64,000 bases of DNA, from NCBI RefSeq assembly GCF_910596095.1, contig NC_056551.1:4204501-4268500 (forward strand), given 5' to 3'. The notes under the pieces were generated by a model that saw nothing but the letters and a program-made list of their open reading frames with translations, was not told the origin of the DNA and ran no database searches. The translations under genes and the position numbers were made by a program. This document shows positions 12,326 to 46,400 of this stretch, piece after piece. The first letter of the stretch is position 1; each line of letters starts with the position of its first letter. The stretch comes from Thunnus maccoyii. Taxonomy: Eukaryota; Chordata; Actinopteri; Scombriformes; Scombridae.

Positions 12326-14376
12326 ACCTCAAACTATTCCTTTAAAGGAGAGCTTCAGATTATTTTCAAATCTGTCATAATACATCACCCACATGCACAC
12401 ACTGAAAGGGTCACTGGTCACTGTAGTCTTTGTCTTTACTGGCCTGAAATGAGGGAATTTGGTACTAAAAAGACAAAACTTAAGAAAGCAGCAAACGGTA
12501 TAGCAGTGCACCCAGCTGCCATACTGTAGTGGGACCAGCTTTGTATTCCCCACGTACATACCACTCTGGAGGAGCACATGCAAGGGTACCTGGAATACAC
12601 AGAGAGACAGAATGAAGAGGAGCTTTGTTCAGACAAGAAGGTAATTATACCAGAAACTGGCCAATGAGTGAATAGCAAAAGCAAAAGCCAGATATCATAC
12701 CAGAGAAAGTATGGTGGGGTCTCTCCTGAACAAAACTGCCACATCCAAAGTTCACCAAGCGGACACACGGGACACTGGAGCCAATTTCAACCAAGATGTT
12801 GTCTGATTTTATGTCCCGGTGAAACACACCTTTATGGTGCATTTCATCAGTTGCATCCACCAACTGATTCAGGAAATTCTGAGATCGAAACAGAGAGAAA
12901 TAGATGAGATGGTAAGGGGGGGGCAGGATTCACAACTTCTAATTGTGACCCTCACACACATACAGCTTCAGTACCTTAGCCTCTTGTTCCTCAATAATGC
13001 CTCCTTGGGAATCAAGGTACGTTGTGAGGACTTCAGAGGGAACTGGTCTTTCTGTGACTAAGATAAGGTCCTGGTCCAGATAGTACCAGTCTAAGAGGGA
13101 GACAGCGGCAAACTTCCCGACTGACTCCGGTCCGCCTGCAGCTTTGTGCATGAGGGCCACTTCTACAGGGATCTTGTAGATCTGAGAGACCCAAACAAGA
13201 AAAAAAAAAGATTGGTTGTTGACCTCATCCATGATGAAGAGCAATTCAACATTCCGATGATAGTGCTGCTGATGGAACAGAGATCAGTTTACTCACGTTC
13301 ATTTCATATGATACATTGCCACATGTGGCCCTTTAACATATTTAATAGCTACCTATAAGACAAAAACACAAGTACTTTGGTTTATACTCTGAGGACGTGG
13401 AGAATGATTCATTGTGTTTGTATGTGTGTGTATGGGAGAGGGAACGTGTATGTGATACTTACTGGTGTGTAATCAATTGATCGGAAACCAGCATACACAG
13501 GTCCACAGACATCTTCTCCGATCTGGCATATACCGCTCCTCAAAATCAGCTGCACAAAGACACACAGTTATTGATTATGCTATACAGTAGCTTTGAGAAT
13601 TGTGTATTGCTCAGAAACCTGACTCCAAATGAATTCTCTTGGCAAGAGTGAATAGACCTCAAACTATTCCTTTAAAGGAGAGCTTCAGATTATTTTCAAA
13701 TCTGTCATAATACATCACCCACATGCACACACTGAAAGGGTCACTGGTCACTGTAGTCTTTGTCTTTACTGGTCTGAAATGAGGGAATTTGGTACTAAAA
13801 AGACAAAACTTAAGAAAAATACCAATTTTACTTGTCTAACTCACTCACCTCTACTTGTTATCACTTCAGGGAGTGTGCTTCCATTCTTCCCTTGTGAAGA
13901 TGAAGAGCTGCAGGAGCTCTGGTTGAGCTCAGAGCTCTTCTGCATTTTTCTGGGCGTCTCCTCACAAGTGCTGGCCTTCCTCTTCCTAGTTAGTAGCTCC
14001 TGGACATCCTCTGCAGACACTTCTTTGCATTTGCTGCTGCTTGTGCTGCTATTGGTACTGGCCCTGTATCTCTTCTTGGGGATCTCTCGTTCAGTGTTGG
14101 CTTTTCTTTTGCCTCCTCTACACCAGTAGCAGCAGCTCCTGGTACTGCTGGGACTGCTGCTACTGGTACTGGCCTTGTATCTCTTCCCAGGAAGCTCTTG
14201 TTCAGTGCTTCTCTTTTGCCTCCTCTTGTGCTGACCTCCTCAAACAACACGTAGCTGGGTTCACTGGTGTTAGTGGTTCTGCAGCTATGCTTGTGCCTCT
14301 TCTCTGGAGCCTCCAGGTCAATACTGGCTTTTCTTTTTCTGCTCACACTGCCTGACAGTGCTTTTGCTTTTGTTTT
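12326..14376 (-). pseudogene. Pim-like kinase partial copy U1
   Basis: Exons in minus-strand order: basic N-terminal exon 14376-13849, Gly-loop 13549-13463, VAIK 13352-13297, hinge 13181-12975, catalytic loop 12878-12701, and a cut PPEW exon 12589-12487. The Gly-loop exon is 87 nt instead of 95 (8 nt missing) and the VAIK exon is 56 instead of 48 nt (8-nt insertion), so the frame is broken twice. The first exon and last exon are absent. The left edge joins N-exon intron sequence directly to the middle of the PPEW exon. The catalytic-loop exon is open and reads HRDIKSDN with NFG. This is host gene wreckage, not a working kinase. Confidence 0.85.
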
Positions 14377-14919
14377 CTAGATATAAGAAGAACCTAGTGA
14401 AAATCATTTAATTCTTGGTTGCATTTATTCTTATTGTGTTAACTACACTGGCACATATTGGCCACTGGTATTCCAGTGGCAGATCCATTCATCTCAACCA
14501 AATGTAGAGATTGTTTCTAAAAAACCTCTGGTTGAAAATTCAGGAAGTCAGCACTGACTTGAAGCGCAAGACAAAACAAAAACTTAATACTCTGAATACT
14601 GCCCTGAGTGTCTGCAGGGACTGAAATGTTATGAAATGAGGGGACTGAAATGATAATGACTGCTGAAGTGATCCATGGGATAACTAAGTGATAGACTTGC
14701 GTCTGTCGGCTTGTTTTAGAATGCAGACATGGTGGATGTCAACACAAATTCTATGTAAGTTCAATTAAAGACAGATTTAACACATTTACATTGTGTGCAG
14801 ATAAACTGTAAGTCATCAAATCTAATTGAGAGGGTTGTTAGCCATCAGTCCTGTCTGGTCAACAGAAATATAGCAGCATTAGCATTGCTGCTCTCTCATA
14901 CAGAAACCATATGACTTAC
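14377..14919. other. Joint between U1 and U2
   Basis: 14377-14630 corresponds to sequence upstream of the N-terminal exon, including a piece homologous to the start of exon 2 of the intact gene (near 14590-14625). From about 14636 the sequence switches to the intron between the PPEW and last exons of the next unit. The first exon of the intact gene is missing here. The same joint recurs at 19712-20254. Confidence 0.6.
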
Positions 14920-16043
14920 CTTGGGATAGCTGTGTTGCTGAGTCCCTGCTGAGTTGCATTTTGCCGCACAGTATGCCCATGGTGCTGTTTCTGAAACCAT
15001 GCAGCAAACGGTATAGCAGTGCACCCAGCTGCCATACTGTAGTGGGACCAGCTTTGTATTCCCCACGTATATACCACTCTGGAGGGGCACATGCAAGGGT
15101 ACCTGGAATACACAGAGAGACAGAATGAAGAGGAGCTTTGTTCAAACAAGAAAGTAATTACACCAAAAAGTGGCCAATGAGTGAATGGCAAAAGTAAAAG
15201 CCAGATATCATACCAGAGAAAGTATGGTGGGGTCTCTCCTAAACAAAACTGCCACATCCAAAGTTCACCAGGTGGACACACGGGACACTGGAGCCAATTT
15301 CAACCAGAATGTTGTCTGATTTTATGTCCCGGTGAAACACACCTTTACGGTGTATTTCGACAGTTGCATCCACCAACTGATTCAAGAAATTCTGAGATAG
15401 AAACAGAGAAAAACAGATGAGATGGTAAGAGGGGAGGGGGGGGGCAGGATTCACAACTTCTAATTGTGAATCTCACACACACACAGAGCTTCAGTACCTT
15501 AGCCTCTTGTTCCTCAATAATGCCTCCTTGGGAATAAAGGTGCGTCGTGAGGACTTCAGAGGGAACTGGTGTTTCTGTGACTAAGATAAGATTCTGGTCC
15601 AGATAGTACCAGTCTAAGAGGGAGACGGCGGCAAACTTCCCGACTGACTCCGGTCCGCCTGCAGCCTAATGCATGAGGGCCACTTCTACAGGGATCTTGT
15701 AGTTCTGAGAGACCCAAACAAGAAAAAAAAAAAAAGATTGGTTGTTGACCTCATCCATGATGAAGAGCAATTCAACATTCCGATGATAGTGTTGCTGATG
15801 GGACAGAGATCAATTTACTCACATTCATTTCATATGCTACATTGCCACATGTGGCCCTTTAACATATTTAATAGCTACCTATAAGACAAAAACACAAGTA
15901 CTTTGGTTTATACTCTGAGGATGTGGAGAATGATTCATTGTGTTTGTATGTGTGTGTATAGGAGAGGGAACGTGTATGTGATACTTACTGGTACGTAATC
16001 CATTAATCGGAAACCAGCATACACAGGTCCACAGACATCTTCT
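14920..16043 (-). pseudogene. Pim-like kinase partial copy U2
   Basis: Exons: cut Gly-loop 16043-15989, VAIK 15878-15823 (56 nt, 8-nt insertion), hinge 15704-15498, catalytic loop 15391-15214, PPEW 15102-14920. The hinge exon has a stop right after LMH and the catalytic-loop exon has a stop after GSFV, so it cannot give a kinase. The PPEW exon is full length (183 nt). The Gly-loop exon is interrupted and fused to an A-rich intron scrap and then to the 231-bp tandem repeat. The first, N-terminal and last exons are absent. Confidence 0.85.
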
Positions 16044-16052
16044 AAAAAGACA

Positions 16053-17040
16053 AAAGAAACACTGATTTTTTATGTGAAACTGCTTTATTTAGTGTTTTTA
16101 CCTGTTTTAATCACTGGGTCTGTTTGTTTCGGAGAAGAGGAGACCTCTGTGGACAATTCAGCTCCCGGTAAATCCCTGCTGAATGTCTGGATCTTAAGTT
16201 ATCACAGAAACAAGCTGAGCAAACGTTAGCAGCAGCTCAGCTAACAGCCCCTACCAGACATCCCGTGCCCACTGAACAGCATCAAAGAAACACTGATTTT
16301 TTATGTGAAACTGCTTTATTTAGTGTTTTTACCTATTTTAATCACTGGGTCTGTTTGTTTCGGAGAAGAGGAGACCTCTGTGGATAATTCAGCTCCCAGA
16401 AACTAGCTGAGCAAACGTTAGCAGCAGCTCAGCTAACAGCCCCTACCAGACATCCCGTGCCCACTGAACAGCATCAAAGAAACACTGATTTTTTATGTGA
16501 AACTGCTTTATTTAGTGTTTTTACCTATTTTAATCACTGGGTCTGTTTGTTTCGGAGAAGAGGAGACCTCTGTGGATAATTCAGCTCCCAGAAACTAGCT
16601 GAGCAAACGTTAGCAGCAGCTCAGCTAACAGCCCCTACCAGACATCCTGTGCCCACTGAACAGCATCAAAGAAACACTGATTTTTTATGTGAAACTGCTT
16701 TATTTTGTGTTTTTACCTGTTAAATCACTGGGTCTGTTTGTTTCGGAGAGGAGGAGACCTCTGTGGATAATTCAGCTCCCAGTAAAAACCCGCTGAATGT
16801 CTGGATCTTAAATTATCAGAGAAACAAGCTGAGCAAACGTTAGCAGAAGCTCAGCTAACAGCCCCTACCAGACATACTGTACCTGGTGAACATTGTCAGA
16901 AAAGCACTGATTTTTTTATGTGAAAACTGCTTTACTCAGTGTTTTTCCTGTTTTAATCACTGGGTCTGTTTGTTCTAGAGAGGAGGAGACCTATGCGGAT
17001 AATTCACCACCCAGTAAAAACATCCTTAACGATGAACACT
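16053..17040. repeat. Tandem repeat block A, 190-231 bp units
   Basis: Units start with AAAGAAACACTGATTTTTTA at 16053, 16284, 16475 and 16668, with a diverged fifth starting near 16899. Spacings are 231, 191, 193 and 231 bp, so a short form lacking about 40 bp coexists with the long form. The units carry GAGGAGACCTCTGTGG and AGCAAACGTTAGCAG motifs. No spacers and no coding logic. The same family recurs at 21.7, 23.2 and 25.0 kb, each time to the right of a cut Gly-loop exon or, at 21.7 kb, of the remnant of its intron. Confidence 0.85.
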
Positions 17041-17889
17041 TAAGTAATTCTAACCCAAACGAGCTGGCTGTTTAATAATGAAGACAACAACTCTCAACCG
17101 AACGTCACCTGTAAGATGAGAATCTGTCTGCTGGTTTCTGATTCTTCTTTTCACTCTTTGGGAACATTTTGTCTGTGCTGGAGTCAGATAATACTACTTG
17201 AAGAGTTACAAAGGCTCCACTTCAACCTGATGACCTTGTACATAGAACCAAAGTGTTGACAAATGTAGTTTCAGCTATAAGCATTTTTTTCAGTTCTTAG
17301 CTACCAGCATTATAGTCATTGTTCTTCAGCATTTAGAATTAGCTAACGTTTATCACTAGGAGGACTTAAAGTTTATGTTTGAAGATGAAACAATGAAGTT
17401 CATTATTCTTGCTCATATATTTTTAAGGTTTAATCAAGACTACAATCTGGAAGTAATTTTGACTCAATTGTATTTGTATAGCTCAATATGATATAGAGTG
17501 TCTTAATAGGCCAGCAACAGTTCCTGACCCAGCCCAAAGCTCTCTATGAAGACAAGGAAAAACTCAATAACCATAAGGCAATTGGAAGAAACCTCGGGAG
17601 AGGCAATTCAAAGAGAGATCCCCTCTCCTCGGACGGCTGAGGGTACGACAGGACGTGCTGTTGGGAACAAGTCCAATATGAAAACAGTCCTAATTGATAA
17701 TTATGTAAAAAGGTAGGATTAGGTTGGAGATGGAGAAAGAGGTGACGAGGGGTGCAAAATGGGTAATGAGTGGGGAAAGGATGGGGTAAGGGTAGAGAAC
17801 ATGGTGGGGTACGTTTTGAGGTAGTTAGAGGATGAGTGGGGGAAAAAAGTCCAAAGTGAGGAAGAGGCCTGGTCACAGTGTTGGTAGAA
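17041..17889. repeat. Duplicated flank block (copy 1)
   Basis: 17,040-17,175 recurs at 23,790-23,930 and in part near 25,600. 17,185-17,330 recurs at 27,635-27,780, and 17,430-17,990 recurs at 28,675-29,250. The last part includes a motif (GAAACCTCGGGAGAGGCAAT near 17589) known to me from dispersed teleost repeats. No coding region. Confidence 0.6.
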
Positions 17890-19711
17890 TTAGTTAAGCC
17901 AGGGGTTTAGCTGTAGCTGCTACAGAGTGGCGCACTCCTCAGGGTTTTTCTTCAGACACAGTTGCAAGAAGTCGAGGCAGTCTGGAATGAAGTAGGGAAA
18001 ACAAATTAAAGATGATAATGACTGCTGAAGTGATCCATGGGATAACTAAGTGATAGACCATATGACTTACCTTGGGATAGCTGTGTTGCTGAGTCCCTGC
18101 TGAGTTGCATTTTGCCGCACAGTATGCCCATGGTGCTGTTTTTGAAACCATGCAGCAAACGGTATAGCAGTGCACCCAGCTGCCATACTGTAGTGGGACC
18201 AGCTTTATATTCACAACTTCAGGATTCACAACTTCTAATTGTGAATCTCACACACACACACAGCTTCAGTACCTTAGCCTCTTGTTCCTCAATAATGCCT
18301 CCTTGGGAATCAAGGTACGTTGTGAGGACTTCAGAGGGAACTGGTGTTTCTGTGACTAAGATAAGGTCCTGGTCCAGATAGTACCAGTCTAAGAGGGAGA
18401 CGGCGGCAAACTTCCCGACTGACTCCGGTCCGTCTGTGGCTTAATGCATGAGGGCCACTTCTACAGGGATCTTGTAGATCTGAGAGACCCAAACAAGAAA
18501 AAAAAAAAAAGATTGGTTGTTGACCTCATCCATGATGAAGAGCAATTCAACATTCTGATGATAGTGCTGCTGATGGAACAGAGATCAATTTACTCACATT
18601 CATTTCATATGGTACATTGCCACATGTGGCCCTTTAACATATTTAATAGCTACCTATAAGACAAAAACACAAGTACTTTGGTTTATACTCTGAGGACGTG
18701 GAGAATGATTCATTGTGTTTGTATGTGTGTGTATAGGAGAGGGAACGTGTATGTGATACTTACTGGTGTGTAATCAATTGATCGGAAACCAGCATACACA
18801 GGTCCACAGACATCTTCTCCGATCTGGCGGAACTGCATATACCGCTCCTCAAAATCAGCTGCACAAAGACACACAGTTATTGATTATGCTATACAGTAGC
18901 TTTGAGAATTGTGTATTGCTCAGAAACCTGACTCCAAATGAATTCTCTTGGCAAGAGTGAATAGACCTCAAACTATTCCTTTAAAGGAGAGCTTCAGATT
19001 ATTTTCAAATCTGTCATAATACATCACCCACATGCACACACTGAAAGGGTCACTGGTCACTGTAGTCTTTGTCTTTACTGGTCTGAAATGAGGGAATTTG
19101 GTACTAAAAAGACAAAACTTAAGAAAAATACCAACTTTACTTGTCTAACTCACTCACCTCTACTTGTGATCACTTCAGGGAGTGTGCTTCCATTCTTCCC
19201 TTGTGAAGATGAAGAGCTGCAGGAGCTCTGGTTGAGCTCAGATCTCTTCTGCATTTTTCTGGGCGTCTCCTCACAAGTGCTGGCCTTCCTCTTCCTAGTT
19301 AGTAGCTCCTGGACATCCTCTGCAGACACTTCTTTGCATTTGCTGCTGCTTGTGCTGCTATTGGTACTGGCCCTGTATCTCTTCTTGGGGATCTCTCGTT
19401 CAGTGTTGGCTTTTCTTTTGCCTCCTCTACACCAGTAGCAGCAGCTCCTGGTACTGCTGGGACTGCTGCTACTGGTGCCGCTGCTGGTGCTGCTACTGGT
19501 ACTGGCCTTGTATCTCTTCCCAGGAAGCTCTTGTTCAGTGCTTCTCTTTTGCCTCCTCTTGTGCTGACCTCCTCCAACAACATGTAGCTGGGTTCACTGG
19601 TGTTAGTGGTTTTGCAGCTATGCTTGTGCCTCTTCTCTGGAGCCTCCAGGTCAATACTGGCTTTTCTTTTTCTGCTCACACTGCCTGACTCAGTGCTTTT
19701 GCTTTTGTTTT
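17890..19711 (-). pseudogene. Pim-like kinase partial copy U3
   Basis: Exons: basic N-terminal exon 19711-19158, Gly-loop 18858-18764 (95 nt, intact), VAIK 18653-18598 (56 nt, 8-nt insertion), hinge 18479-18273 with a stop after LMH, a cut PPEW exon 18213-18071, and the last exon 17981-17890 carrying an internal stop (a Gln codon changed to TAG). The catalytic-loop exon is deleted: PPEW sequence is joined straight to the hinge-side intron. The N-terminal exon has its KRKAS start and its conserved end (TRKRKASTCEETPRKMQKSS) in different frames, explained by a 4-nt loss after GGKR. First exon absent. Confidence 0.85.
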
Positions 19712-20254
19712 CTAGATATAAGAAGAACCTAGTGAAAATCATTTAATTCTTGGTTGCATTTATTCTTATTGTGTTAACTACACTGGCACATATTGGCCAC
19801 TGGTATTAAAGTGGCAGATCCATTCATCTCAACCAAATGTAGAGATTGTTTCTAAAAAACCTCTGGTTAAAAATTCAGGAGGTCAGCACTGACTTGAAGC
19901 GCAAGACAAAACAAAAACTTAATACTCTGTATACTGCCCTGAGTGTCTGCAGGGACTGAAATGTTATGAAATGAGGGGACTGAAATGATAATGACTGCTG
20001 AAGTGATCCATGGGATAACTAAGTGATAGACTTGTGTCTGTTGGCTTGTTTTAGAATGCAGACATGGCGGATGTCAACACAAATTCTATGTAAGTTCAAT
20101 TAAAGACAGATTTAACACATTTACATTGTGTGCAGATAAACCGTAAGTCATCAAATCTAATTGAGAGGGTTGTTAGCCATCAGTCCTGTCTGGTCAACAG
20201 AAATATAGTAGCATTAGTATTGCTGCTCTCTCATACAGAAACCATATGACTTAC
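19712..20254. other. Joint between U3 and U4
   Basis: Near-copy of 14377-14919, with the same switch from sequence upstream of the N-terminal exon to the PPEW/last-exon intron near 19,975. The two joints being the same shows that U1-U2 and U3-U4 are copies of one larger duplicated segment. Confidence 0.6.
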
Positions 20255-21655
20255 CTTGGGATAGCTATGTTGCTGAGTCCCTGCTGAGTTGCATTTTGCC
20301 GCACAGTATGCCCATGGTGCTGTTTCTGAAACCATGCAGCAAACGGTATAGCAGTGCACCCAGCTGCCATACTGTAGTGGGACCAGCTTTGTATTCCCCA
20401 CGTACATACCACTCTGGAGGGGCACATGCAAGGGTACCTGGAATACACAGAGAGACAGAATGAAGAGGAGCTTTGTTCAGACAAGAAAATAATTATACCA
20501 GAAACTGGCCAATGAGTGAATAGCAAAAGCAAAAGCCAGATATCATACCAGAGAAAGTATGGTGGGGTCTCTCCTGAACAAAACTGCCACATCCAAAGTT
20601 CACCAAGCGGACACACGGGACACTGGAGCCAATTTCAACCAAGATGTTGTCTGATTTTATGTCCCGGTGAAACACACCTTTATGGTGCATTTCATCAGTT
20701 GCATCCACCAACTGATTCAGGAAGGTCTGAGATAGAAACAGAGAGAAATAGATGAGATGGTAAGGGGGGGGCAGGATTCACAACTTCTAATTGTGACCCT
20801 CACACACACAGAGAGCGTCAGTACCTTAGCCTCTTGTTCCTCAATAATGCCTCCTTGGGAATCAAGGTACGTTGTGAGGACTTCAGAGGGAACTGGTCTT
20901 TCTGTGACTAAGATAAGATCCTGGTCCAGATAGTACCAGTCTAAGAGGGAGACAGCGGCAAACTTCCCGACTGACTCCGGTCCGCCTGCAGCTTTGTGCA
21001 TGAGTGCCACTTCTACAGGGATCTTGTAGATCTGAGAGACCCAAACAAGAAAAAAAAAAAAGATTGGTTGTTGACCTCATCCATGATGAAGAGCAATTCA
21101 ACATTCCGATGATAGTGCTGCTGATGGGACAGAGATCAGTTTACTCACGTTCATTTCATATGGTACATTGCCACATGTGGCCCTTTAACATATTTAATAG
21201 CTACCTATAAAACAAAAACACAAGTACTTTGATTTATACTCCGAGGACGTGGAGAATGATCCATTGTGTTTGTATGTGTGTGTATGGGAGAGGGAACGTG
21301 TATGTGATACTTACTGGTGTGTAATCAATTGATCGGAAACCAGCATACACAGGTCCACAGACATCTTCTCCGATCTGGCGGAACTGCATATACCTCTCCT
21401 CAAAATCAGCTGCACAAAGACACACAGATATTGATTATACTATACATTAGCTTTGAGAAATGTATATTGCTCAGAAACCTGACTCCAAATGAATTCTCTT
21501 GGCAAGAGTGAATAGACCTCAAACTATTCCTTTAAAGGAGAGCTTCAGATTATTTTCAAATCTGTCATAATACATCACCCACATGCACACACTGAAAGGG
21601 TCACTGGTCACTGTAGTCTTTGTCTTTACTGGTCTGAAATGAGGGAATTTGGTAC
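20255..21655 (-). pseudogene. Pim-like kinase partial copy U4
   Basis: Best preserved of the array fragments. Gly-loop 21409-21315 (95 nt), VAIK 21204-21149 (56 nt, 8-nt insertion), hinge 21031-20825, catalytic loop 20726-20549, PPEW 20437-20255 (183 nt). All junctions keep GT/AG and, apart from the VAIK exon, the frames are open. The N-terminal, first and last exons are gone; to the right, intron sequence up to about 21653 is fused to a scrap of Gly-loop exon and then tandem repeat. NFG is present as in all copies. Confidence 0.85.
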
Positions 21656-22089
21656 ACAGGTCCACAGACATCTTCTAAAAAGACAAAAGAAACACTGATT
21701 TTTTATGTGAAACTGCTTTATTTAGTGTTTTTACCTGTTTTAATCACTGGGTCTGTTTATTTCGGAGAAGAGGAGACCTCTGTGGATAATTCAGCTCCCG
21801 GTAAATCCCTGCTGAACATCTGGATCTTTAGTTATCACAGAAACAAGCTGAGCAAACGTTAGCAGCAGCTCAGCTAATAGCCCTTACCAGACATCCCGTG
21901 CCCACTGAACAGCATCAAAGAAACACTGATTTTTTATGTGAAACTGCTTTATTTTAGTGTTTTTACCTGTTTTAATCACTGGGTCTGTTTGTTTCGGAGA
22001 AGAGGAGACCTCTGTGGATAATTCAGCTCCCGGTAAATCCCTGCTGAACGTCTGGATCTTTAGTTGTCACAGAAACAAGCTGAGCAAAC
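21655..22089. repeat. Tandem repeat block B with a Gly-loop exon scrap
   Basis: Starts with the Gly-loop scrap ACAGGTCCACAGACATCTTC, then units beginning at about 21686 and 21916 (about 230 bp apart) of the same family as block A. It ends exactly where the PPEW exon of U5 begins. Confidence 0.8.
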
Positions 22090-22637
22090 CTTGGGATAGC
22101 TGTGTTGCTGAGTCCCTGCTGAGTTGCATTTTGCCGCACAGTATGCCCATGGTGCTGTTTCTGAAACCATGCAGCAAACGGTATAGCAGTGCACCCAGCT
22201 GCCATACTGTAGTGGGACCAGCTTTGTATTCCCCACGTACATACCACTCTGGAGGGGCACATGCAAGGGTACCTGGAATACACAGAGAGACAGAATGAAG
22301 AGGAGCTTTGTTCAGACAAGAAAATAATTATACCAGAAACTGGCCAATGAGTGAATAGCAAAAGCAAAAGCCAGATATCATACCAGAGAAAGTATGGTGG
22401 GGTCTCTCCTGAACAAAACTGCCACATCCAAAGTTCACCAGGCCGACACGCGGGACACTGGAGCCAATTTCAACCAGGATATTGTCTGATTTTATGTCCC
22501 GGTGAAACACACCTTTACGGTGCATTTCATCAGTTGCATCCACCAACTGATTCAGGAAGGTCTGAGATAGAAACAGAGAGGAACAGATGAGATGGTAAGG
22601 GGGGGGGGCAGGATTCACAACTTCTAATTGTGAATCT

Positions 22638-22674
<37 letters not shown>

Positions 22675-23225
22675 CGTCAGTACCTTAGCCTCTTGTTCCT
22701 CAATAATGCCTCCTTGGGAATCAAGGTACGTTGTGAGGACTTCAGAGGGAACTGGTCTTTCTGTGACTAAGATCCTGGTCCAGATAGTACCAGTCTAAGA
22801 GGGAGACAGCGGCAAACTTCCCGACTTACTCCGGTCCGCCTGCAGCTTTGTGCATGAGGGCCACTTCTACAGGGATCTTGTAGATCTGAGAGACCCAAAC
22901 AAGAAAAAAGAAAAAAAGATTGGTTGTTGACCTCATCCATGATGAAGAGCAATTCAACATTCCGATGATAGTGCTGCTGATGGGACAGAGATCCATTTAC
23001 TCACGTTCATTTCATATGGTACATTGCCACATGTGGCCCTTTAACATATTTAATAGCTACTTATAAGACAAAAACACAAGTACTTTGGTTTATACTCTGA
23101 GGATGTGGAGAATGATCCATTGTGTTTGTATGTGTGTGTATAGGAGAGGGAACGTGTATGTGATACTTACTGGTACATAATCCATTAATCGGAAACCAGC
23201 ATACACAGGTCCACAGACATCTTCT
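22090..23225 (-). pseudogene. Pim-like kinase partial copy U5
   Basis: Cut Gly-loop 23225-23171, VAIK 23060-23005 (8-nt insertion), hinge 22885-22684 (202 nt, 5 nt missing, frame broken), catalytic loop 22561-22384, PPEW 22272-22090. The PPEW exon is full length, but its donor is replaced because the tandem repeat begins at the exon edge. The acceptor before VAIK reads TATAAG instead of TATAGG, a change shared with U6. A (CA)n tract lies in the catalytic-loop/hinge intron around 22637-22672. Confidence 0.85.
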
Positions 23226-23231
23226 AAAAAG

Positions 23232-23880
23232 ACAAAAGAAACACTGATTTTTTATGTGAAACTGCTTTATTTAGTGTTTTTACCTGTTTAAATCACTGGG
23301 TCTGTTTGTTTCGGAGAAGAGGAGACCTCTGTGGACAATTCAGCTCCCAGAAACTAGCTGAGCAAACGTTAGCAGCAGCTCAGCTAACAGCCCCTACCAG
23401 ACATCCTGTGCCAACTGAAAGGCATCAAAGAAACACTGATTTTTTACGTGAAACTGCTTTATTTAGTGTTTTTACCTGTTTTAATCACTGGGTCTGTTTG
23501 TTTCGGAGAAGAGGAGACCTCTGTGGATAATTCAGCTCCCGGTAAATCCCTGCTGAACGTCTGGATCTTAAGTTACCACAGAAACAAGCTGAGCAAACGT
23601 TAGCAGCAGCTCAACTAACAGCCCCTACCAGACATACTGTACCTGGTGAACATTGTCAGAAAAGCACTGATTTTTTTCATGTGAAAACTGCTTTACTCAG
23701 TGTTTTTTCCTGTTTTAATCACTGGCTCTGTTTGTTCTGGAGAGGAGGAGACCTATGCGGATAATTCACCACCCAGTAAAAACATCCTTAACGATGAACA
23801 CTTAAGTAATTCTAACCCAAAGAAGCTGGCTGTTTAATAATGAAGACAACAACTCTCAACCGAACGTCACCTGCAAGATG
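23232..23880. repeat. Tandem repeat block C
   Basis: Units begin near 23237, 23427 and 23658 (diverged last unit), same family as block A, followed by the shared unique stretch also seen at 17,040 and 25,600. Confidence 0.8.
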
Positions 23881-24010
23881 AGAATCTGTCTGCTGGTTTC
23901 TGATTCTTCTTTTCACTCTTTGGGAACATTTTGTCTGTGCTGGAGTCAGATAATACTACTTGAAGAGTTACAAAGGCTCCACTTCAACCTGATGACCTTG
24001 TACATAGAAC

Positions 24011-25033
24011 CTGCCATACTGTAGTGGGACCAGCTTTATATTCCCCACGTACATACCACTCTGGAGGGGCACATGCAAGGGTACCTGGAATACACAGAGA
24101 GACAGAATGAAGAGGAGCTTTGTTCAGACAAGAAAATAATTATACCAGAAACTGGCCAATGAGTGAATAGCAAAAGCAAAAGCCAGATATCATACCAGAG
24201 AAAGTATGGTGGGGTCTCTCCTGAACAAAACTGCCACATCCAAAGTTCACCAGGCGGACACGCGGGACACTGGAGCCAATTTCAACCAGGATATTGTCTG
24301 ATTTTATGTCCCGGTGAAACACACCTTTACGGTGCATTTCATCAGTTGCATCCACCAACTGATTCAGGAAGGTCTGAGATAGAAACAGAGAGGAACAGAT
24401 GAGATGGTAGGGGGGAGGGGGGCAGGATTCACAACTTCTAATTGTGAATCTCTCACACACACACACACACACACAGCTTCAGTACCTTAGCCTCTTGTTC
24501 CTCAATAATGCCTCCTTGGGAATCAAGGTACGTTGTGAGGACTTCAGAGGGAACTGGTCTTTCTGTGACTAAGATAAGATCCTGGTCCAGATAGTACCAG
24601 TCTAAGAGGGAGACAGCGGCAAACTTCCCGACTGACTCCGGTCCGCTTAGAGCTTTGTGCATGAGGGCCACTTCTACAGGGATCTTGTAGATCTGTGAGA
24701 CCCAAACAAGAAAAAAAAAAAAAAGATTGGTTGTTGACCTCATCCATGATGAAGAGCAATTCAACATTCCGATGATAGTGCTGATGATGGGACAGAGATC
24801 CATTTACTCACGTTCATTTCATATGGTACATTGCCACATGTGGCCCTTTAACATATTTAATAGCTACTTATAAGACAAAAACACAAGTACTTTGGTTTAT
24901 ACTCTGAGGATGTGGAGAATGATCCATTGTGTTTGTATGTGTGTGTATAGGAGAGGGAACGTGTATGTGATACTTACTGGTACATAATCCATTAATCGGA
25001 AACCAGCATACACAGGTCCACAGACATCTTCTA
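24011..25033 (-). pseudogene. Pim-like kinase partial copy U6
   Basis: Cut Gly-loop 25033-24978, VAIK 24867-24812 (8-nt insertion and the TATAAG acceptor shared with U5), hinge 24692-24486 (open, LSGP instead of AGGP), catalytic loop 24373-24196, and a cut PPEW exon 24084-24011. First, N-terminal and last exons missing. Its left edge joins the unique stretch that follows the tandem repeat, after TTGTACATAGAACC, to the middle of the PPEW exon. Confidence 0.85.
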
Positions 25034-25034
25034 A

Positions 25035-25650
25035 AAAGACAAAAGAAACACTGATTTTTTATGTGAAACTGCTTTATTTAGTGTTTTTACCTGTTTTAAT
25101 CACTGGGTCTGTTTGTTTCGGAGAAGAGGAGACCTCTGTGGACAATTCAGCTCCCAGTAAATCCCTGCTTAACGTCTGGATCTTAAGTTATCACAGAAAC
25201 AAGCTGAGCAAACATTAGCAGCAGCTCAGCTAACAGCCCCCACCAGACATCCTTTGCCCACTGAACAGCATCAAAGAAACACTGATTTTTTATGTGAAAC
25301 TGCTTTATTTAGTGTTTTTACCTGTTTAAATCACTGGGTCTGTTTGTTTCGGAGAAGAGGAGACCTGTGGACAATTCAGCTCCCAGAAACTAGCTGAGCA
25401 AACGTTAGCAGCAGCTCAGCTAACAGCCCCTACCAGACATCCTGTACCTGGTGAACATTGTCAGAAAAGCACTGATTTTTTTTATGTGAAAACTGCTTTA
25501 CTCAGTGTTTTTTCCTGTTTTAAACACTGGCTCTGTTTGTTCTGGAGAGGAGGAGACCTATGCGGATAATTCACCACCCAGTAAAAACATCCTTAACGAT
25601 GAACACTTAAGTAATTCTAACCCAAAGAAGCTGGCTGTTTAATAATGAAG
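25035..25650. repeat. Tandem repeat block D
   Basis: Units begin near 25043, 25275 and 25467, then the shared stretch with GATGAACACTTAAGTAATTC. Same order as in block C. Confidence 0.8.
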
Positions 25651-29150: not shown

Positions 29151-32100
29151 TTAGTTAAGCCAGGGGTGGAGCTGTAGCTGCTGCAGAGTGGCGCGCTCGT
29201 CAGGGTTTTTCTTCAGACACAGTTGCAAGAAGTCGAGGCAGTCTGGAATGAAGTAGAGAAAACAAATTAAAGATGATAATGACTGCTGAAGTGATCCATG
29301 GGATAACTAAGTGATAGACTTGTGTCTGTCGGCTTGTTTTAGAATGCAGACATGGCGGGTGTCAACACAAATTCTATGTAAGTTCAATTAAAGACAGATT
29401 TAACACATTTACATTGTGTGTAGCTAAACCGTAAGTCATCAAATCTAATTGAGAGGGTTGTTAGCCATCAGTCCTGTCTGGTCAACAGAAATATAGCAGC
29501 ATTAGCATTGCTGCTCTCTCATACAGAAACCATATGACTTACCTTGGGATAGCTGTGTTGCTGAGTCCCTGCTGAGTTGCATTTTGCCGCACAGTATGCC
29601 CATGGTGCTGTTTCTGAAACCATGCAGCAAACGGTATAGCAGTGCACCCAGCTGCCATACTGTAGTGGGACCAGCTTTGTATTCCCCACGTACATACCAC
29701 TCTGGAGGGGCACATGCAAGGGTACCTGGAATACACAGAGAGACAGAATGAAGAGGAGCTTTGTTCAAACAAGAAAGTAATTATACCAGAAACTGGCCAA
29801 TGAGTGAATAGCAAAAGCAAAAGCCAGATATCATACCAGAGAAAGTATGGTGGGGTCTCTCCTGAACAAAACTGCCACATCCAAAGTTCATCAGGCGGAC
29901 ACGCGGGACACTGGAGCCAATTTCAACCAGGATGTTTTCTGATTTTATGTCCCGGTGAAACACACCTTTGCGGTGCATTTCATCAGTTGCATCCACCAAC
30001 TGATTCAGGAAGGTCTGAGATAGAAACAGAGAGAAACAGATGAGCTGGTAAGTGGGGGGGCTGTAAAAATTTCCCTTAAAACAAAATTCAGACTGTTGTA
30101 GACAATGTGGCTTCTGTGGCTGTTTGGACAAGTAAGAATAAAGACATGTGACACTGCTGGTACCAACAGATCCTACTCAGTATGTTCACATGCATACAAG
30201 ACACCAGGTTACATAGGTATTTGGAGAACACATTTAGAGTAACCTGGTTACTGTAAATCTGAGTAAACATACACCATGTCATTAATCAGATTTCTCCCCT
30301 ACCTCGACCTTATTTTGGAAACATAGAGGCTCTGTGTTAGTTTTAAGTTTTAATTAATTGATTTTTGAAAGCCAGCAGTTCCTCATGCTGAGTAAGCGCC
30401 GCATAATAAAATTAACTTTAGACTCATATTATTCGATGATGACCCAATAATGTAAATTACTACAATAATATGCCAATTGCTAATTGTGAATCCATGTGTC
30501 CAATGACCTTGCTTAAACATAAAGTTTAAGCAAGGTCATTGCTGTCACTGAGGACATGTCCTTAGTATTGTTTCAGGGAATTTGGGATTTTTAAAAGCCT
30601 GGCTTTAAAACAGCATTTAGACATGTATCATGTAGGGAGTTGAAATTTTCAGAACACATATTTCAGCAGTTAAATTAACATAGAAAATGTGGAAAAATAA
30701 CATTTAACTTGTTTTGGTGGCTGGTCCAACATTTTTTAAGATTGCACACACACAAACACACGCACACACACACACACACACAGCTTCAGTACCTTAGCCT
30801 CTTGTTCCTCAATGACGCCTCCTTGGGAATCAAGGTACGTCGTGAGGTTTTGAGAGGGAACTGGTCTTTCTGTGATTAAGATAAGCTGCTGGTCCAGATA
30901 GTACCAGTCCAAGAGGGAGACGGTGGAAAAATTCCCGACTGACTCTGGTCCGCCCGCAACTTTGTGCATGAGGGCCACTTCTACAGGGATCTTGTACGCC
31001 TGAGAGACCCATATAAAAAAAAAGATTGGTTGTTGTCCTAATCCATGATAAAGAGCAGTTCAACATTCAGATGATAGTGCTGCTGATGGGACAGAGATCA
31101 ATTTACTCACGTTCATTTCATACGGTACATGTGGCCCCTTAACATATTTGATAGCTACCTATAAGACAAAAACACAAGTACTTTGGTTTATACTCTGAGG
31201 ACGTGGAGAATGATTCATTGTGTTTGTATGTGTGTGTATGGGAGAGGAACATGTATGTGATACTTACTGGTACATAATCAATTGATCGGAAACCAGCATA
31301 CACAGGTCCACAGACATCTTCTCCGATCTGGCGGAACTGCATATACCGCTCCTCAAAATCAGCTGCACAAAGACACACAGATATTGATTATGCTATACAG
31401 TAGCTTTGAGAAATGTATACTGCAAATACTACAAATAATTTATTACTAATAACACTACTTGTAATTGTAAGCCTTCTTATATTTAGACTAATTATAAATG
31501 TATTCTTAACCTTGAAGGAATAGTTCAACGTTTTGTAAAATGCACTTCTTTGCTGTTTTGTTGAAAGTTAGAAGACTGACACCACTCTCATGTCTGTGTG
31601 TTAAAGCTGCACTAATCAATATTTTTATATTAACAACAGAGAAAAATTACTACGACTAGTGAAAGAGGTTTCTCATAGTGACGAATTCATGGAGAATTAG
31701 CACCTAGCTTTAGCAACATGATGGACTTGTTTAGTAGCTTTCAGCTCACTGTTTTGAGTTTATAGCCTAGCATCAAACAGCAGACTGAAATTAGCTGGGG
31801 AGAATACTTGAGCATTTAGCAGCTAAAGAGGCAGATACTTTTCTCAGAAGTTGGTGGACACAAACCAGAGCTAACAGGAGTGAATAATGGACTCAAGTTC
31901 ATCAGATCAACAGACACCTGACTCCAATTGAATGATAATGTTTCTGCTGTATGTGTAAATAGGCAACTGTTTGCTAACATATTAACCATAACAATTTTAT
32001 AAGGTGATAATTTGTCAGTGTTGTGGTTACAGCTTGTTGTGCTTCCCCCAACTGGCCAAAGAGAGAGAGAAAAAAAAACAAAACAATAAAGTTTTAAGTA

Positions 32101-34673
32101 GCTAGAGCTAGGAGGCAATTAGCTATGCATGAAGACATCAACCAGGAGGAAACAGCTAGCCTGGTACAAAATTCCTCCTTCTAAAGCTCACTAACATACA
32201 TATTGCATGGATCTTGTTTGCTCAGTCTGTACTTAAATGTAAACGTAAAAAACTGTGTGGTTTTATGGAGAGTTTCATGCTCAAAGTGTTTCTTGTCAAA
32301 CAACAGCTAGGCACAATAAATTCCTGGATTCTTGTCATTGCTGCAAGCTTGCCAGGAGATGTTGCTCAGGTGGGCAGATGAACAAAATGTTGTTCACTGG
32401 GAAGTAGCTGTAACTCCCCCTCAAAAAACAGGAGGGTACAGTATGTTAATTAATGGGATTTTGGTAGTCTTTTTGTCACTAGTTCTGTGCTAAACTAGGC
32501 TAATTACCTCCTGACTCCAGCTACATAGTGGTATTAATTTTCTCATTTAACTCTTGGCAAGAGAGTGAATAGACCTCAAACTATTCCTTTAAAGGAGAGC
32601 TTCAGATTATTTTCAAGTCTGTCATTATACATAATCCACATGCACACACTGAAAGGGTCACTGGTCACTGTAGTCTTTGTCTTTACTGGCCTGAAATGAG
32701 GGAATGTGGTACTAAAAAGACAAAAGTTTAGAAAGATACTAACTTTACTTGTCTAACTCACTCACCTCTGCTTGTGATCACTCTAGGGAGTGTGCTTCCA
32801 TTCTTCCCTTGTGAGAATGAAGAGCTGCAGGAGCTCTGGTTGAGCTCAGAGCTCTTCTGCCTCTTTCTGGGCGTCTCCTCACAAGTGCTGGCCTTCCTCT
32901 TCCTCGTTAGAAGCTCCTGGACATCCTCTGCAGACACTTCCTTGCGTTTACTGCTACAAGTGCTGCTGCTGGGGCTGCTACAGATGCTGCTCCTGGGGCT
33001 GCTGCTACTGCTGCTGCTCCTGGTGCTGCCACTGGTCCTGTACCTCTTCTTCTGGATCTCTCGTTCAGTGCTGGCTTTTCTCTTGTCTTCTATGCACCAG
33101 GAGCACCAGGAGTGCCAGGAGCACTGGGAGCACAAGCTCCTGGTGCTGCTGCTACTGGGGTTTCTGCTGCTGGGACTGCTACTGGGGCTGCTACAGATGC
33201 TGCTCCTGGGGCTGCTGCTCCTGGTGCTGCCACTGGTCCTGTACCTCTTCTTCTGGATCTCTCGTTCAGTGCTGGCTTTTCTCTTGTCTTCTATGCACCA
33301 GGAGCACCAGGAGTGCCAGGAGCACTGGGAGCACAAGCTCCTGGTGCTGCTGCTACTGGGGTTTCTGCTGCTGGGACTGCTACTGGGGCTGCTACAGATG
33401 CTGCTCCTGGGGCTGCTGCTCCTGGTGCTGCCACTGGTCCTGTACCTCTTCTTCTGGATCTCTCGTTCAGTGCTGGCTTTTCTCTTGCCTTCTCTGCACC
33501 AGGAGCACCAGGAGCACCAGCTACTGGGGCTTCTGCTGCTGGGACTGCTACTGGGGCTGCTACAGATGCTGCTCCTGGGGCTGCTGCTACTGCTGCTGCT
33601 GCTACTGCTGCTGCTCCTGGTGCTGCCACTGGTCCTGTACCTCTTCTTCTGGATCTCTCGTTCAGTGCTGGCTTTTCTCTTGCCTTCTCTGCACCGGGAG
33701 CACCAGCTCCTGGTACTGCTGCTGCTGGGGCTGCTGCTGCTGCTGCTGCTGGGGCTGCTGCCGGGGCTGCCACTGCTACTGGTGTTGCTGCAGGGGCTGC
33801 TACTGGTGCTGCTGCTGGGGCTGCTGCTCCTGGTGCTGCTGCTACTGCTGCTGCTCCTGGTGCTGCCACTGGTCCTGTACCTCTTCTTCTGGATCTCTCG
33901 TTCAGTGCTGGCTTTTCTCTTGCCTTCTCTGCACCGGGAGCACCAGCTCCTGGTGCTGCTGCTGCTGGGGCTGCTGCTGCTACTGGTGCTGCTGCCGGGG
34001 CTGCCACTGCTACTGGTGCTGCTGCAGGGGCTGCTGCTGGGGCTGCTGCTCCTGGTGCTGTCGCTGGTACTGGCCCTGTACCTCTTCTTCTGGATCTCTC
34101 GTTCAGTGCTGGCTTTTCTCTTGCCTTCTCTGCACCGGGAGCACCAGCTCCTGGTACTGCTGCTGCTGGGGCTGCTGCTGCTGCTGCCGGGGCTGCCACT
34201 GCTACTGGTGCTGCTGCTGGGGCTGCTACTGGTGCTGCTGCAGGGGCTGCTACTGGTGCTGCTGCTGGGGCTGCTGCTGCTACTGGTGCTGCTGCTGCTG
34301 CTGGGGCTGCTACCGCTGTTACTGGTGCTGCTGCTCCTGGTGCTGCTGCTGCTACTGCTGCTGCTGCTGCTACTGCTGCTGCTGGGGCTGGTACTCTGAA
34401 TACTGCCCTGAGTGTCTGCAGAGACTGAAATGTTAGTTGATGACATTGTTACATGTAAATTACAAGTCACAACCCATAGATAACCCATTAGAAAACAAAA
34501 ATATTTTAAAGATTAAAAAACAGTAGGAAAACAGGAATGTGAGCTATAACTCCCATATAAATCCACATCATGGATTATCATTTAATGGAGACTGCATCTT
34601 TACTTTGGATTTCACACTCACCTTGATCTCTCGCAAGGCGCAGAGGTTCATGAGAGTATGTAGACGCCATCAT
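29151..34673 (-). CDS. Pim-like serine/threonine kinase (predicted pseudokinase) with repeat-expanded basic N-terminus; intact 8-exon gene
   Basis: Exons: 34673-34622, 34424-32766, 31362-31268, 31158-31111, 30999-30793, 30014-29837, 29725-29543, 29242-29151. All introns are GT-AG, all phases agree, and the sum is 2514 nt, 837 residues plus stop. Exon 1 reads MMASTYSHEPLRLARDQ; exon 2 is the Ser-rich repeat with KRKAS motifs. The kinase part has a loop of GEDVCG instead of GxGxxG, VAIKYV, the PVEVALMHK helix, an ERPVP hinge (Pim hallmark), HRDIKSEN, NFG instead of DFG, a PPEW segment, and the end HPWLN. Pim kinases are constitutively active cytosolic/nuclear Ser/Thr kinases (family knowledge). 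Loss of the DFG Asp and of a loop Gly argues for weak or no catalysis. The basic repeats suggest nuclear location. It is the only local copy without the 8-nt VAIK insertion. Exon 1 could also start at the second Met. Confidence 0.85.
30015..30792 (-). other. Intron with insertion and perfect hairpin
   Basis: Intron between hinge and catalytic-loop exons of the intact gene, 778 nt against about 96 nt in U1. The extra segment is about 30,061-30,740. It contains a perfect 18-bp inverted repeat, 30501-30518 and 30524-30541, with a 5-base loop. A (CA)n tract follows at about 30747-30782. Confidence 0.7.
31363..32765 (-). other. Large intron carrying a dispersed repeat
   Basis: Intron between the repeat exon and the Gly-loop exon, 1403 nt here against 299 nt in U3. 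The additional sequence includes a dispersed element at about 31610-32070 that recurs at 56285-56880. Confidence 0.65.
31610..32070. repeat. Dispersed repeat, copy 1
   Basis: Begins TTAAAGCTGCACTAATCAAT and matches 56285-56880 over most of its length (shared CTGACTCCAA, AATGATA, GTTTGCTAACA and GTCAGTGTTGTG segments in the same order). No coding content; probably a non-autonomous DNA transposon. Confidence 0.55.
32940..34400 (-). repeat. Coding minisatellite in exon 2 of the Pim-like gene
   Basis: A conserved core (plus-strand CTCTTCTTCTGGATCTCTCG) starts at 33044, 33245, 33446, 33641, 33881 and 34082; the spacings 201, 201, 195, 240 and 201 are all multiples of three. On the minus strand each core encodes KRKASTEREIQKKRYR, linked by Ser/Thr/Cys-rich stretches built on AGC/CAG-type triplets. 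A seventh, older copy near the exon end reads KRKASTCEETPRKRQKSS. KRKAS plus KKRYR looks like a bipartite nuclear-localisation signal (inference). Because the units are in-frame, other frames and the opposite strand are open too, but only this frame joins the kinase. Confidence 0.9.
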
Positions 34674-43419: not shown

Positions 43420-46400
43420 TCAGTGACTCTCTCCTTTCTTTCCCACAACCTGCGTGGCAACAAAATAAAACCACCATCCATGAGTAAAACAAACACACCT
43501 AAACTAAAATCAATTCAGGTCACTGTGACTGGTCCATACCCTTTTGAAGTCATTCATATTGGTGGCCTGCACTGGAGTGCCTATGAATGTCAGGTAGTTG
43601 ATTTTTGTCGTCTCCTCGTCTCCTTGGTTTGACTTGATAAACAACTGGTGAGAAAAAAAAAGACACACTGTCAATAACATGAAATTAAATACCAATATGC
43701 AGAATTTTAAGGTAATACATAGCACAAACTCATACAAAGAAAGCCATTTTGTCTCAAGCTTGTTCATGTTAACGTTTCAGCCGTAATGCTGGTGATCTGG
43801 CCCTTACCGTAACACTCTGTACGTTCTGAAACTTGACGTAGCGCAGAGGAATCAAGCCATCCTCTTTGTAGTCTTCCTCTGACAGATCCAGAGTCTGAGT
43901 GGCTTCACTCCGTTCAGCGTCATCGAAACCCATCGATCGAGGGAGATTGATGAACACCTTCACCACCTTAGGAGCTTGGGCTGATACAGAGAATGAAGGA
44001 TAAATGAAGCCAGGGAGGAAAGGAGAGGGAAAGAAAGGTGAAAAGAGGGAGGGAGGGAGGGACAGAGGATGTTAGTTATTGGGGAATTGCAATTATTTTC
44101 ATTGCAATATCTTCAGATGAGAGATACAGATTAATGACTGAAGTAAAGAGCAGCAGAAGAGAACTTACCAAAATCTGAAGACTGTAGCTTCATAGAGAAG
44201 AGCTTCACAGGCTGGTTGAAGGCGATAGTTATCAGCAACTGAGCAAGATATGAAACAGCAACATATTAGACAAGTTACCAAATTCAACTGATTAAATAGG
44301 CAAACAGAGAGCACGATCGACTAAAATAGGGCTGAAAAGTCTTTTAAGATTAGTTTTGTGACATTTTTGCTTTCATTTGACAGTTCACAGGATGGAGAAA
44401 CAGGAAATATGGGGAGATAGAGGGTTGACATATGACAATGGTCCTGGTTTGGATTCAAACCAGAGATGCTGTTGTTACATGGTAGGCACTTAAGGCTGCA
44501 TTCAGACCAACAACAGAAATGGTGATCAACATTTTTCACCATTTTCTGACATTTTATGGACCAAACAACCAATCAATTAATCAATAATGAAAATAATCGT
44601 TAATTGCAGGCCTACAACTAATAAAATCTGCCAGTGACAATAGTTATTACAACTGGTAAAGGTTGTTAGAGTTAACAGCTCCTACCTGTTCATCACAGTC
44701 AGACTCCAGGTAGGAGGAGTCTTTGATTAAGCAGTTATCGAAGCCACAGTCGTCGCTCTCGTTGAGGCACTCGCAGCCGGCTTTGTTGACAAAAGGCATG
44801 AGGTCCATCTGAAAACAAACCAGACAAGACAAACTCAACCCCTGGGTCTATTTCAGCTTTTACTTAACTTACAAAATGTTGATGGCCAACCAAAACCTTC
44901 CCAATTGAGCAGTTTTTCTACAGAATGATGAAAGGTGTCTAGAGCATTGTCTACTCACGTATCCCTTTGGAATGTCGGAGTCCTCATTGTTTCCTGGGTC
45001 GTTCTCTGTGTGCTGTTTGATTTTCTCCTCCAGACCTGCAGCGTCCGCCCCCTGATACTGATCCACCCGAACCCTGTTCCTGAAGAACAAGAACGTCGGT
45101 GTTGCTGAGATGTTGTTGGCTGCTGCTGTCGCCTGAGAGAAAAAAAGAGACGGATTGGTAAAACTTGCCTCTCATCCATCTACAAGTTTTCTTTAATAGT
45201 AACATCTGAGACCATAATCACTGAAACCTTGTCTAAAACTGACTGTTGGTCTAAAGTTATGCTGATTCTCCCTGCGTGCAGCTTTGTTTCTCATTCTCTA
45301 ACAGCATCTGTCTAGTGACTTGTGTTCATTCTACATCTCTATATCAGCATGAAGATCAGTTTCTTTAGGTTTGACTCAATCTGCAGTGCTTCACAAGACA
45401 GGAAATGAATGTCTTTGTCGCTGGTAAGTTGCGGAAATTGTGGACCAGTCACTGTTTCAGCAGCCAACCAGCTGTTTTATTTTCATCCCAAATGATAGCT
45501 GGTCCTTGGTTAAAGTAGAGACTTCCTGCACAATGACAAATTAAGGGATTAAGTGCTGGGTATATTCTATATCTTTCTTGCTGTAAACAAATCACATGAA
45601 AAGACCAAAACATCAATGAATTGATCTACAAACAAGTAAGTCTGACATATTTTATTCCTCTCTGCTGTCCAAAAACTCTTAAACCCGTCAGTGAGTCTCA
45701 CTGTTTCACTGGGTGACATGTTCCTTCATTACCATGAACACACACACGGGAGTTTGAATATTAAACTACATTTGTGCGCAGGTTTTATAGATTTAAATCC
45801 TGAGTAGGAACCAGTGGGCTTGGAGATGAGAGCCACAGAGATGGACTAACACACTAGAAAAATTATCACCTCATAAACAATTTTCCAGTTAAACTTTGAT
45901 CTTTGATTCATATCATATCAGGATTTTAATCTGATCAACCTTATAGTTTTGAATGTGGACCTTCAGTATTTGAAGCAAGTCAGATATAAGAATACAGACA
46001 CGGAATGTGTCAGATACATATAACTGACGTTTCAAATATTATGCTGCTGCTCATCCATTGATCAACTTGTCATGAAAATGTCATGAGATGATTGCTGATG
46101 AAATTATCTTTGGGGGATTCTGTGATGCTTCTCGTCCAACTTGTTTCGATTACACAGAAAGGGAGTGAAGGTTGTATTTTGTTTTTGATTCATTATGGAA
46201 TTCAGTAATGAAAAAGACTAACAATCACTCCAAGACAGGAGGAAAGAAAAACAGGGATGCCATTGGTTTGAATGGGTCAACACAAGTTATCTGACCTGAC
46301 TTTGGTACTGGTCTGACATGATTTGAACAGTCATAAAATAATAATATAATATATGTTAATATCAATGCTACATCTGGGTTTTCAGAGAAAATGATTCAAT

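Follow-up and report, generated by a model that had tools for sequence, protein, structure and literature searches.

The window, a stretch of 64,000 nucleotides on contig C19, carries a Pim-like gene (the focal gene) on its minus strand. The gene model extends from 34670 to 29151 and comprises eight exons and seven GT-AG introns. The intron phases fit, and the frame is open over 2502 nt (833 codons plus stop). The window's own 782-Mb genome was used for the comparisons with other loci. The exons of the focal gene are listed below:

34622..34670, minus strand: exon 1, MASTYSHEPLRLARDQ, with a GT donor in phase 1

32766..34415, minus strand: exon 2, rich in Ser and formed by a minisatellite that includes seven bipartite-NLS-like units; donor in phase 1, phases as in the C7 paralogue

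31268..31362, minus strand: exon 3, start of the kinase domain, with a degraded glycine loop (GEDVCG)

31111..31158, minus strand: exon 4, with the VAIK lysine present

30793..30999, minus strand: exon 5, with the Glu of helix C and a Pim-like hinge (ERPVP)

29837..30014, minus strand: exon 6, with HRD present and DFG changed to NFG

29543..29725, minus strand: exon 7, the PPEW region

29151..29242, minus strand: exon 8, the end of the C-terminal lobe and the stop codon

Related copies (the array) are encoded elsewhere in the window:

12488..25032, minus strand: a tandem series of six Pim-like kinase modules, all decayed (each shows a stop, a deletion, or an exon that is partial or missing); two include a copy of exon 2

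Tandem repeats of about 190-234 bp (CAGAAACAAGCTGAGCAAACGTTAGC...) are located between Pim-like modules at 16205-17021, 23348-23807 and 25194-25559. Two TRIM-type frames at 1285-2970 and 5408-7099 (minus) match RING, B-box, coiled-coil and PRY/SPRY domains. A probable TXNL1-like gene is indicated at 43775-45171 (minus) by frames that match PITH and, weakly, thioredoxin. Together with the expanded Pim-like genes, the TRIM and TXNL1-like genes would suit a teleost.

The exon structure is conserved in a paralogue on C7 (2.93 Mb), whose kinase frame is open. Its exon-2 acceptor and donor phases are identical to those of the focal gene, and exons 3-6 and 8 are of equal length, with the C7 exon 7 being shorter by 12 nt. 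The exon 1 region of the focal gene is matched at C7 (70%) and at C18:3.91 Mb (80%), and the counterpart at both loci has an ATG, an open frame and a GTGAGT donor. Because exon 1, the splice phases and the kinase-exon lengths match the C7 paralogue, the joining of exon 2 to the kinase exons is well supported by sequence comparison. The sequence-only reading had described a coding minisatellite and had named an exon never spliced to the kinase exons as the finding that would speak against it; the repeat is in fact located within an exon phased to the kinase exons. A start codon within an extended exon 2 (MSSTNIS...) is an alternative to exon 1. Both array copies of exon 2 contain an TATATCTAG site upstream of the first unit, and since this stretch is missing in the focal gene, the focal exon-2 acceptor may differ from the ancestral one. 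The exon 1 region is present a third time in the C18 segment (C18:3909500-3913500), at 80% identity; a search of these 4 kb with focal DNA and protein matched nothing beyond that region.

Exon 2 contains the following chain of basic units:

34075..34122, minus strand: unit 1, KRKASTEREIQKKRYR

33874..33921, minus strand: unit 2, KRKASTEREIQKKRYR

33634..33681, minus strand: unit 3, KRKASTEREIQKKRYR

33439..33486, minus strand: unit 4, KRKASTEREIQKKRYR

33238..33285, minus strand: unit 5, KRKASTEREIQKKRYR; here 277 nt (33211-33487) are identical to the stretch 201 nt away

33037..33084, minus strand: unit 6, KRKASTEREIQKKRYR

32854..32901, minus strand: unit 7, older, KRKASTCEETPRKRQK, with homologues in two array copies and in C7

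The 48-nt cores of units 1-6 show 0 differences across 15 pairwise comparisons. Units are spaced by 201, 240, 195, 201 and 201 nt, with a further 183 nt to unit 7; all spacings are multiples of three, largely because the linkers are built of triplets. Two arrays were detected by TRF at exon 2, one of 201 bp (score 1125) and one of 240 bp (score 877). Coordinates, cores and TRF arrays all agree with the initial description of six units and an older seventh, 195-240 bp apart in steps of three. The linkers consist of AGC-rich triplets (182 of the 549 codons of exon 2 are AGC), and Ser accounts for 239 of 549 residues (43.5%). The pattern KR-x10-K[KR]x[KR] occurs seven times in exon 2, a count reached or exceeded in 0 of 20,000 same-residue shuffles, where six of the seven matches are one duplicated unit. 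No Pfam family was found at E ≤1 for exon 2 or for the two array exon-2 frames.

Variable sites are found at 14 of 48 positions in the near flanks of the units versus 0 of 48 in the cores (Fisher p 4e-5). This difference could be due to selection; the core silent sites, roughly nine, are also invariant among the six units, so that homogenisation or recent duplication is enough to explain it. For the same reason, the identity of the six units was rejected as proof of selection at the protein level. Given the 277-nt run that is exact at an offset of 201 nt, part of the repeat array is attributed to recent duplication or to duplication in the assembly. Exon 2 is also nearly free of stops in its three antisense frames, whose longest open runs are 501-543 codons, and in a second sense frame (374 codons). 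Since the triplet repeat leaves few stops in most frames, open-frame length is weak evidence and was rejected as proof of coding.

The classical bipartite NLS consensus is KRX10-12K(K/R)X(K/R), with a spacer of 10 in the nucleoplasmin signal, according to the accessible text of PMC6989684 and PMC3121794. All seven focal units, each of 16 residues, fit this consensus with a spacer of exactly 10, which substantiates their earlier description as nuclear-signal-like. KR, the 10-residue spacer and K(K/R)X(K/R) are thus common to the focal unit and the nucleoplasmin-type NLS as presented in the available part of PMC6989684, whereas the focal gene has seven putative copies per protein, inside a Ser-rich minisatellite.

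The units also resemble a basophilic phosphorylation site, as had been suggested for KRKAS, with the Ser at position 5 of KRKAST. In the available part of PMC5190019, the Pim1 consensus is given as K/R-K/R-R-K/R-X-S/T-X'. Arg at position -3 and Lys at -4 and -2 are present in 7/7 focal units, and the full consensus, i.e. with a basic residue at -5 as well, in 1/7. The 18 listed x10 units, a list limited to non-degenerate units with a spacer of exactly 10, have Ser or Thr as the third spacer residue in 15 cases; for units of other loci this holds in 8 of 11. The full Pim form is found in 5 of the 18. Pim phosphorylation of Notch1 at Ser2152 (K-A-R-K-P-S-T), between two NLS basic clusters, promotes nuclear localization, as stated in the same partial source. 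The focal units similarly have a Ser in a Pim-like basophilic context within the spacer of the putative NLS. Notch1, as described there (PMC5190019), is a Pim substrate with a single site, whereas the focal gene encodes repeated putative sites on a Pim-family protein itself.

A whole-genome search with kinase exons 6-7 yielded at least 54 exon matches at E ≤0.001 among the best candidates scored, and the KRYR-type unit yielded six at the same threshold, all in focal exon 2. At laxer E, these are followed by two array copies and then by one weak match (E 4.98). In both array copies of exon 2, about three units are read in the last open frame and one earlier unit in a different frame; the two or three motifs previously ascribed to them were roughly right. 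Distinct units fitting KRX10-12K(K/R)X(K/R) number seven in the focal gene, four at C7, two at C9, three at C6, two at C12 and three at C18. The five non-focal loci together have 14 such units, and C7 and C9 one additional off-pattern unit each. These counts exclude C13:9.6 Mb, C13:3.0 Mb and C13:31.2 Mb as well as the N-terminal stretches of C12:3866281, C12:6210164 and C12:6222013. With units present at C7, C9, C6, C12 and C18, a motif chain unique to the focal gene was rejected. The proposed expansion in this gene holds for the amplification of one unit and fails for the chain as such, which is shared with five other loci (2-4 units each).

Strict x10 counts were reached in 0 (focal), 0 (C7), 8 (C9), 231 (C6), 0 (C12) and 0 (C18) of 20,000 shuffles. 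In a looser scan, where a basic pair had to be followed by four residues of which at least 3 are basic, matches in the five non-focal sequences taken together are most numerous at a spacer of 10 (25 matches); 23 are found at 9, 17 at 11, 1-4 at 13-15 and 2-9 at 16-30. The loci at C13 speak against a general occurrence of the chain: one KR-x11-KKKR unit is found in the stretch read at 3.0 Mb and degenerate units only in that at 9.6 Mb, and the Pim-like locus at 31.2 Mb showed no basic unit with the filter used. The Pim-like gene at C9:32967363-32970704 has a single 433-codon open frame with three basic units and an intact DFG; being intronless over this part, it is perhaps a retrocopy. At C12:3852900-3855200 (frame from about 1477), the basic units are immediately followed by a Ser-rich tandem stretch particular to this locus (GSSMKSSST-like), which suggests a second coding Ser repeat in the Pim-like family.

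Exons 3-8 of the focal gene match Pkinase (E 3.5e-35). The nearest PDB match is PIM-2 (E 2.4e-43, full-length domain), and the best 42 rows of the match list are PIM, followed by MARK at 2.6e-18. A two-proline ERP-x-P hinge is diagnostic of Pim kinases, and the focal hinge ERPVP is aligned to ERPLP of PIM-2. The focal domain retains the VAIK Lys, the HRD Asp (HRDIK), the Asn after HRD, and PPEW. The glycine loop (GxGxxG) reads GEDVCG versus GEGGFG in C7. The DFG motif of C7 is replaced by MNFG in the focal gene and by VNFG in 5/5 array copies having exon 6; as NFG is common to these five, it predates the array. DFG is present in 14/15 listed Pim-like loci outside C19; the remaining locus, C1:5.21 Mb, is decayed, with stops inside. 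Loss of the DFG Asp normally abolishes magnesium-dependent phosphotransfer. With this residue and the glycine-loop pattern lost, the focal protein is a predicted pseudokinase and probably inactive. An active focal kinase was judged unlikely in view of NFG. The wording "on a kinase" in the sequence-only reading conceals that the DFG aspartate and the glycine-loop pattern are lost. In comparison with human PIM-1/PIM-2 (PDB 2iwi and others), the domain shares VAIK, HRD, PPEW and the ERP-x-P hinge, lacks DFG and the glycine-loop pattern, and has a long N-terminal repeat exon added.

The reading that we favour, at about even probability, is that the Pim-like pseudokinase carries a nuclear-targeting tail that is multivalent and tunable by phosphorylation. 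The N-terminal repeat tail would be disordered and would serve as a multivalent importin-alpha-binding, nuclear-targeting tail. Ser 5 of the unit (KRKAS) would constitute a basophilic Pim/PKA-type site within the NLS spacer. Its phosphorylation would occur in trans, the protein's own kinase being probably inactive, and would tune nuclear import. One unit was amplified to six identical copies along with an AGC-rich Ser linker; the amplification would have arisen via slippage or unequal exchange in this triplet-rich linker, and its spread need not have been adaptive. We infer expression, disorder, importin binding, phosphorylation and a copy-number effect from the features described above. A further possibility, which we consider unlikely, is a lineage-expanded chain whose bipartite NLSs are phospho-switchable and each contain the type of site that is phosphorylated by active Pim kinases; the pseudokinase would then serve the active Pim-like paralogues as a multivalent decoy substrate in the nucleus or as a sponge for importin-alpha.

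A possible though doubtful explanation is that the gene is relaxed or decaying: the one member still open in a Pim-like cluster that is collapsing, with neutral minisatellite expansion, motifs without effect and a protein that is maybe not made. The loss of the catalytic Asp and the decay of the neighbouring modules fit this explanation, as do the identical cores and the 277-nt exact run, which indicate recent, perhaps unselected, duplication. Divergence from the array copies points in the same direction. Exons 3-5 differ at 7.9-9.1% versus 4.6-6.2% for introns, and the final portion of exon 2 at 7.9% versus 4.7-5.2% for introns. Exons 6-7, however, differ at 1.4-3.9% versus 2.3-5.6% for introns and are less diverged in 3/4 comparisons. 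Summed over nine non-independent comparisons with array copies, 151/2781 exonic and 109/2527 intronic sites differ; exons overall are no better conserved than introns, which counts against a functional reading. Polarisation by C7 in exons 5-7 (exon 7 partly) gives six nonsynonymous changes against three synonymous ones on the focal branch, and five against three on the array branch; no constraint is visible. Against decay, focal gene and C7 (163/263 residues identical) show a dN of 0.257 and a dS of 0.602, a ratio of 0.43 that mixes both branches; the pooled dN/dS versus array copies is 0.44, obtained from non-independent pairs. Exon 1 is still open, and none of the eight focal exons has a lesion, whereas all six neighbouring modules are damaged in the ways listed above. 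In a rough simulation with an assumed indel effect, a kinase frame free of constraint and given 14 substitutions remained open in 0.54 of runs when no indel was added and in 0.02 with two; the openness of the focal frame is therefore modest evidence.

The modules at 12488-25032 are a candidate piRNA-cluster-like array by analogy with Japanese flounder, where, according to the accessible part of PMC12562241, expanded pim-like genes overlap piRNA clusters and overexpression of one such cluster lowered pim1, pim2 and pim3.2. This precedent and the decayed same-strand copies beside the focal gene would suit a locus that acts mainly as RNA, i.e. as a piRNA-cluster-like template of Pim-like copies silencing other pim genes, with an incidental open frame. 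The focal gene, however, retains every splice site and an open frame, both unneeded by such a template, and we regard this role as improbable. A similarly low probability is assigned to direct binding of nucleic acid or a nucleolar partner by the basic units, in which unit number would set avidity and importin signalling would not be the main role. The charge of exon 2 (K+R 89 versus D+E 28) and its Ser-rich context are compatible with such binding, but the spacing of the basic clusters is kept at 10-12 across several loci though the spacer residues differ, for which reason importin-alpha fits better than general charge.

In common with the expanded pim-like genes of teleosts (PMC12562241, in its available part), the focal gene has a Pim-like kinase domain and belongs to a multi-copy family with clustered copies and some supposed pseudogenes. 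An N-terminal bipartite-NLS-like chain is not described in that part of the source, and the focal gene differs by its long repeat exon and NFG. The medaka element Teratorn carries a pim-like gene, as reported in the available part of PMC5601938; nothing linking the focal gene to Teratorn was found here. In the open-access literature, no paper on pim-like genes with nuclear localization was found and none joining pim-like kinases to bipartite nuclear localization, which does not imply absence in print.

The expanded fish Pim-like family is mainly known for its large number of genes and their association with piRNAs. A shared N-terminal feature of these genes would be the chain of basic units, and the 2-4 diverged copies in sister genes versus seven in the focal gene would provide a natural dose series for nuclear-signal valency. 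The exon-2 repeat should be length-polymorphic, and constraint on it is therefore testable in a population. If the pseudokinase were a decoy or sponge, its potency would be set by unit number and would vary between individuals.
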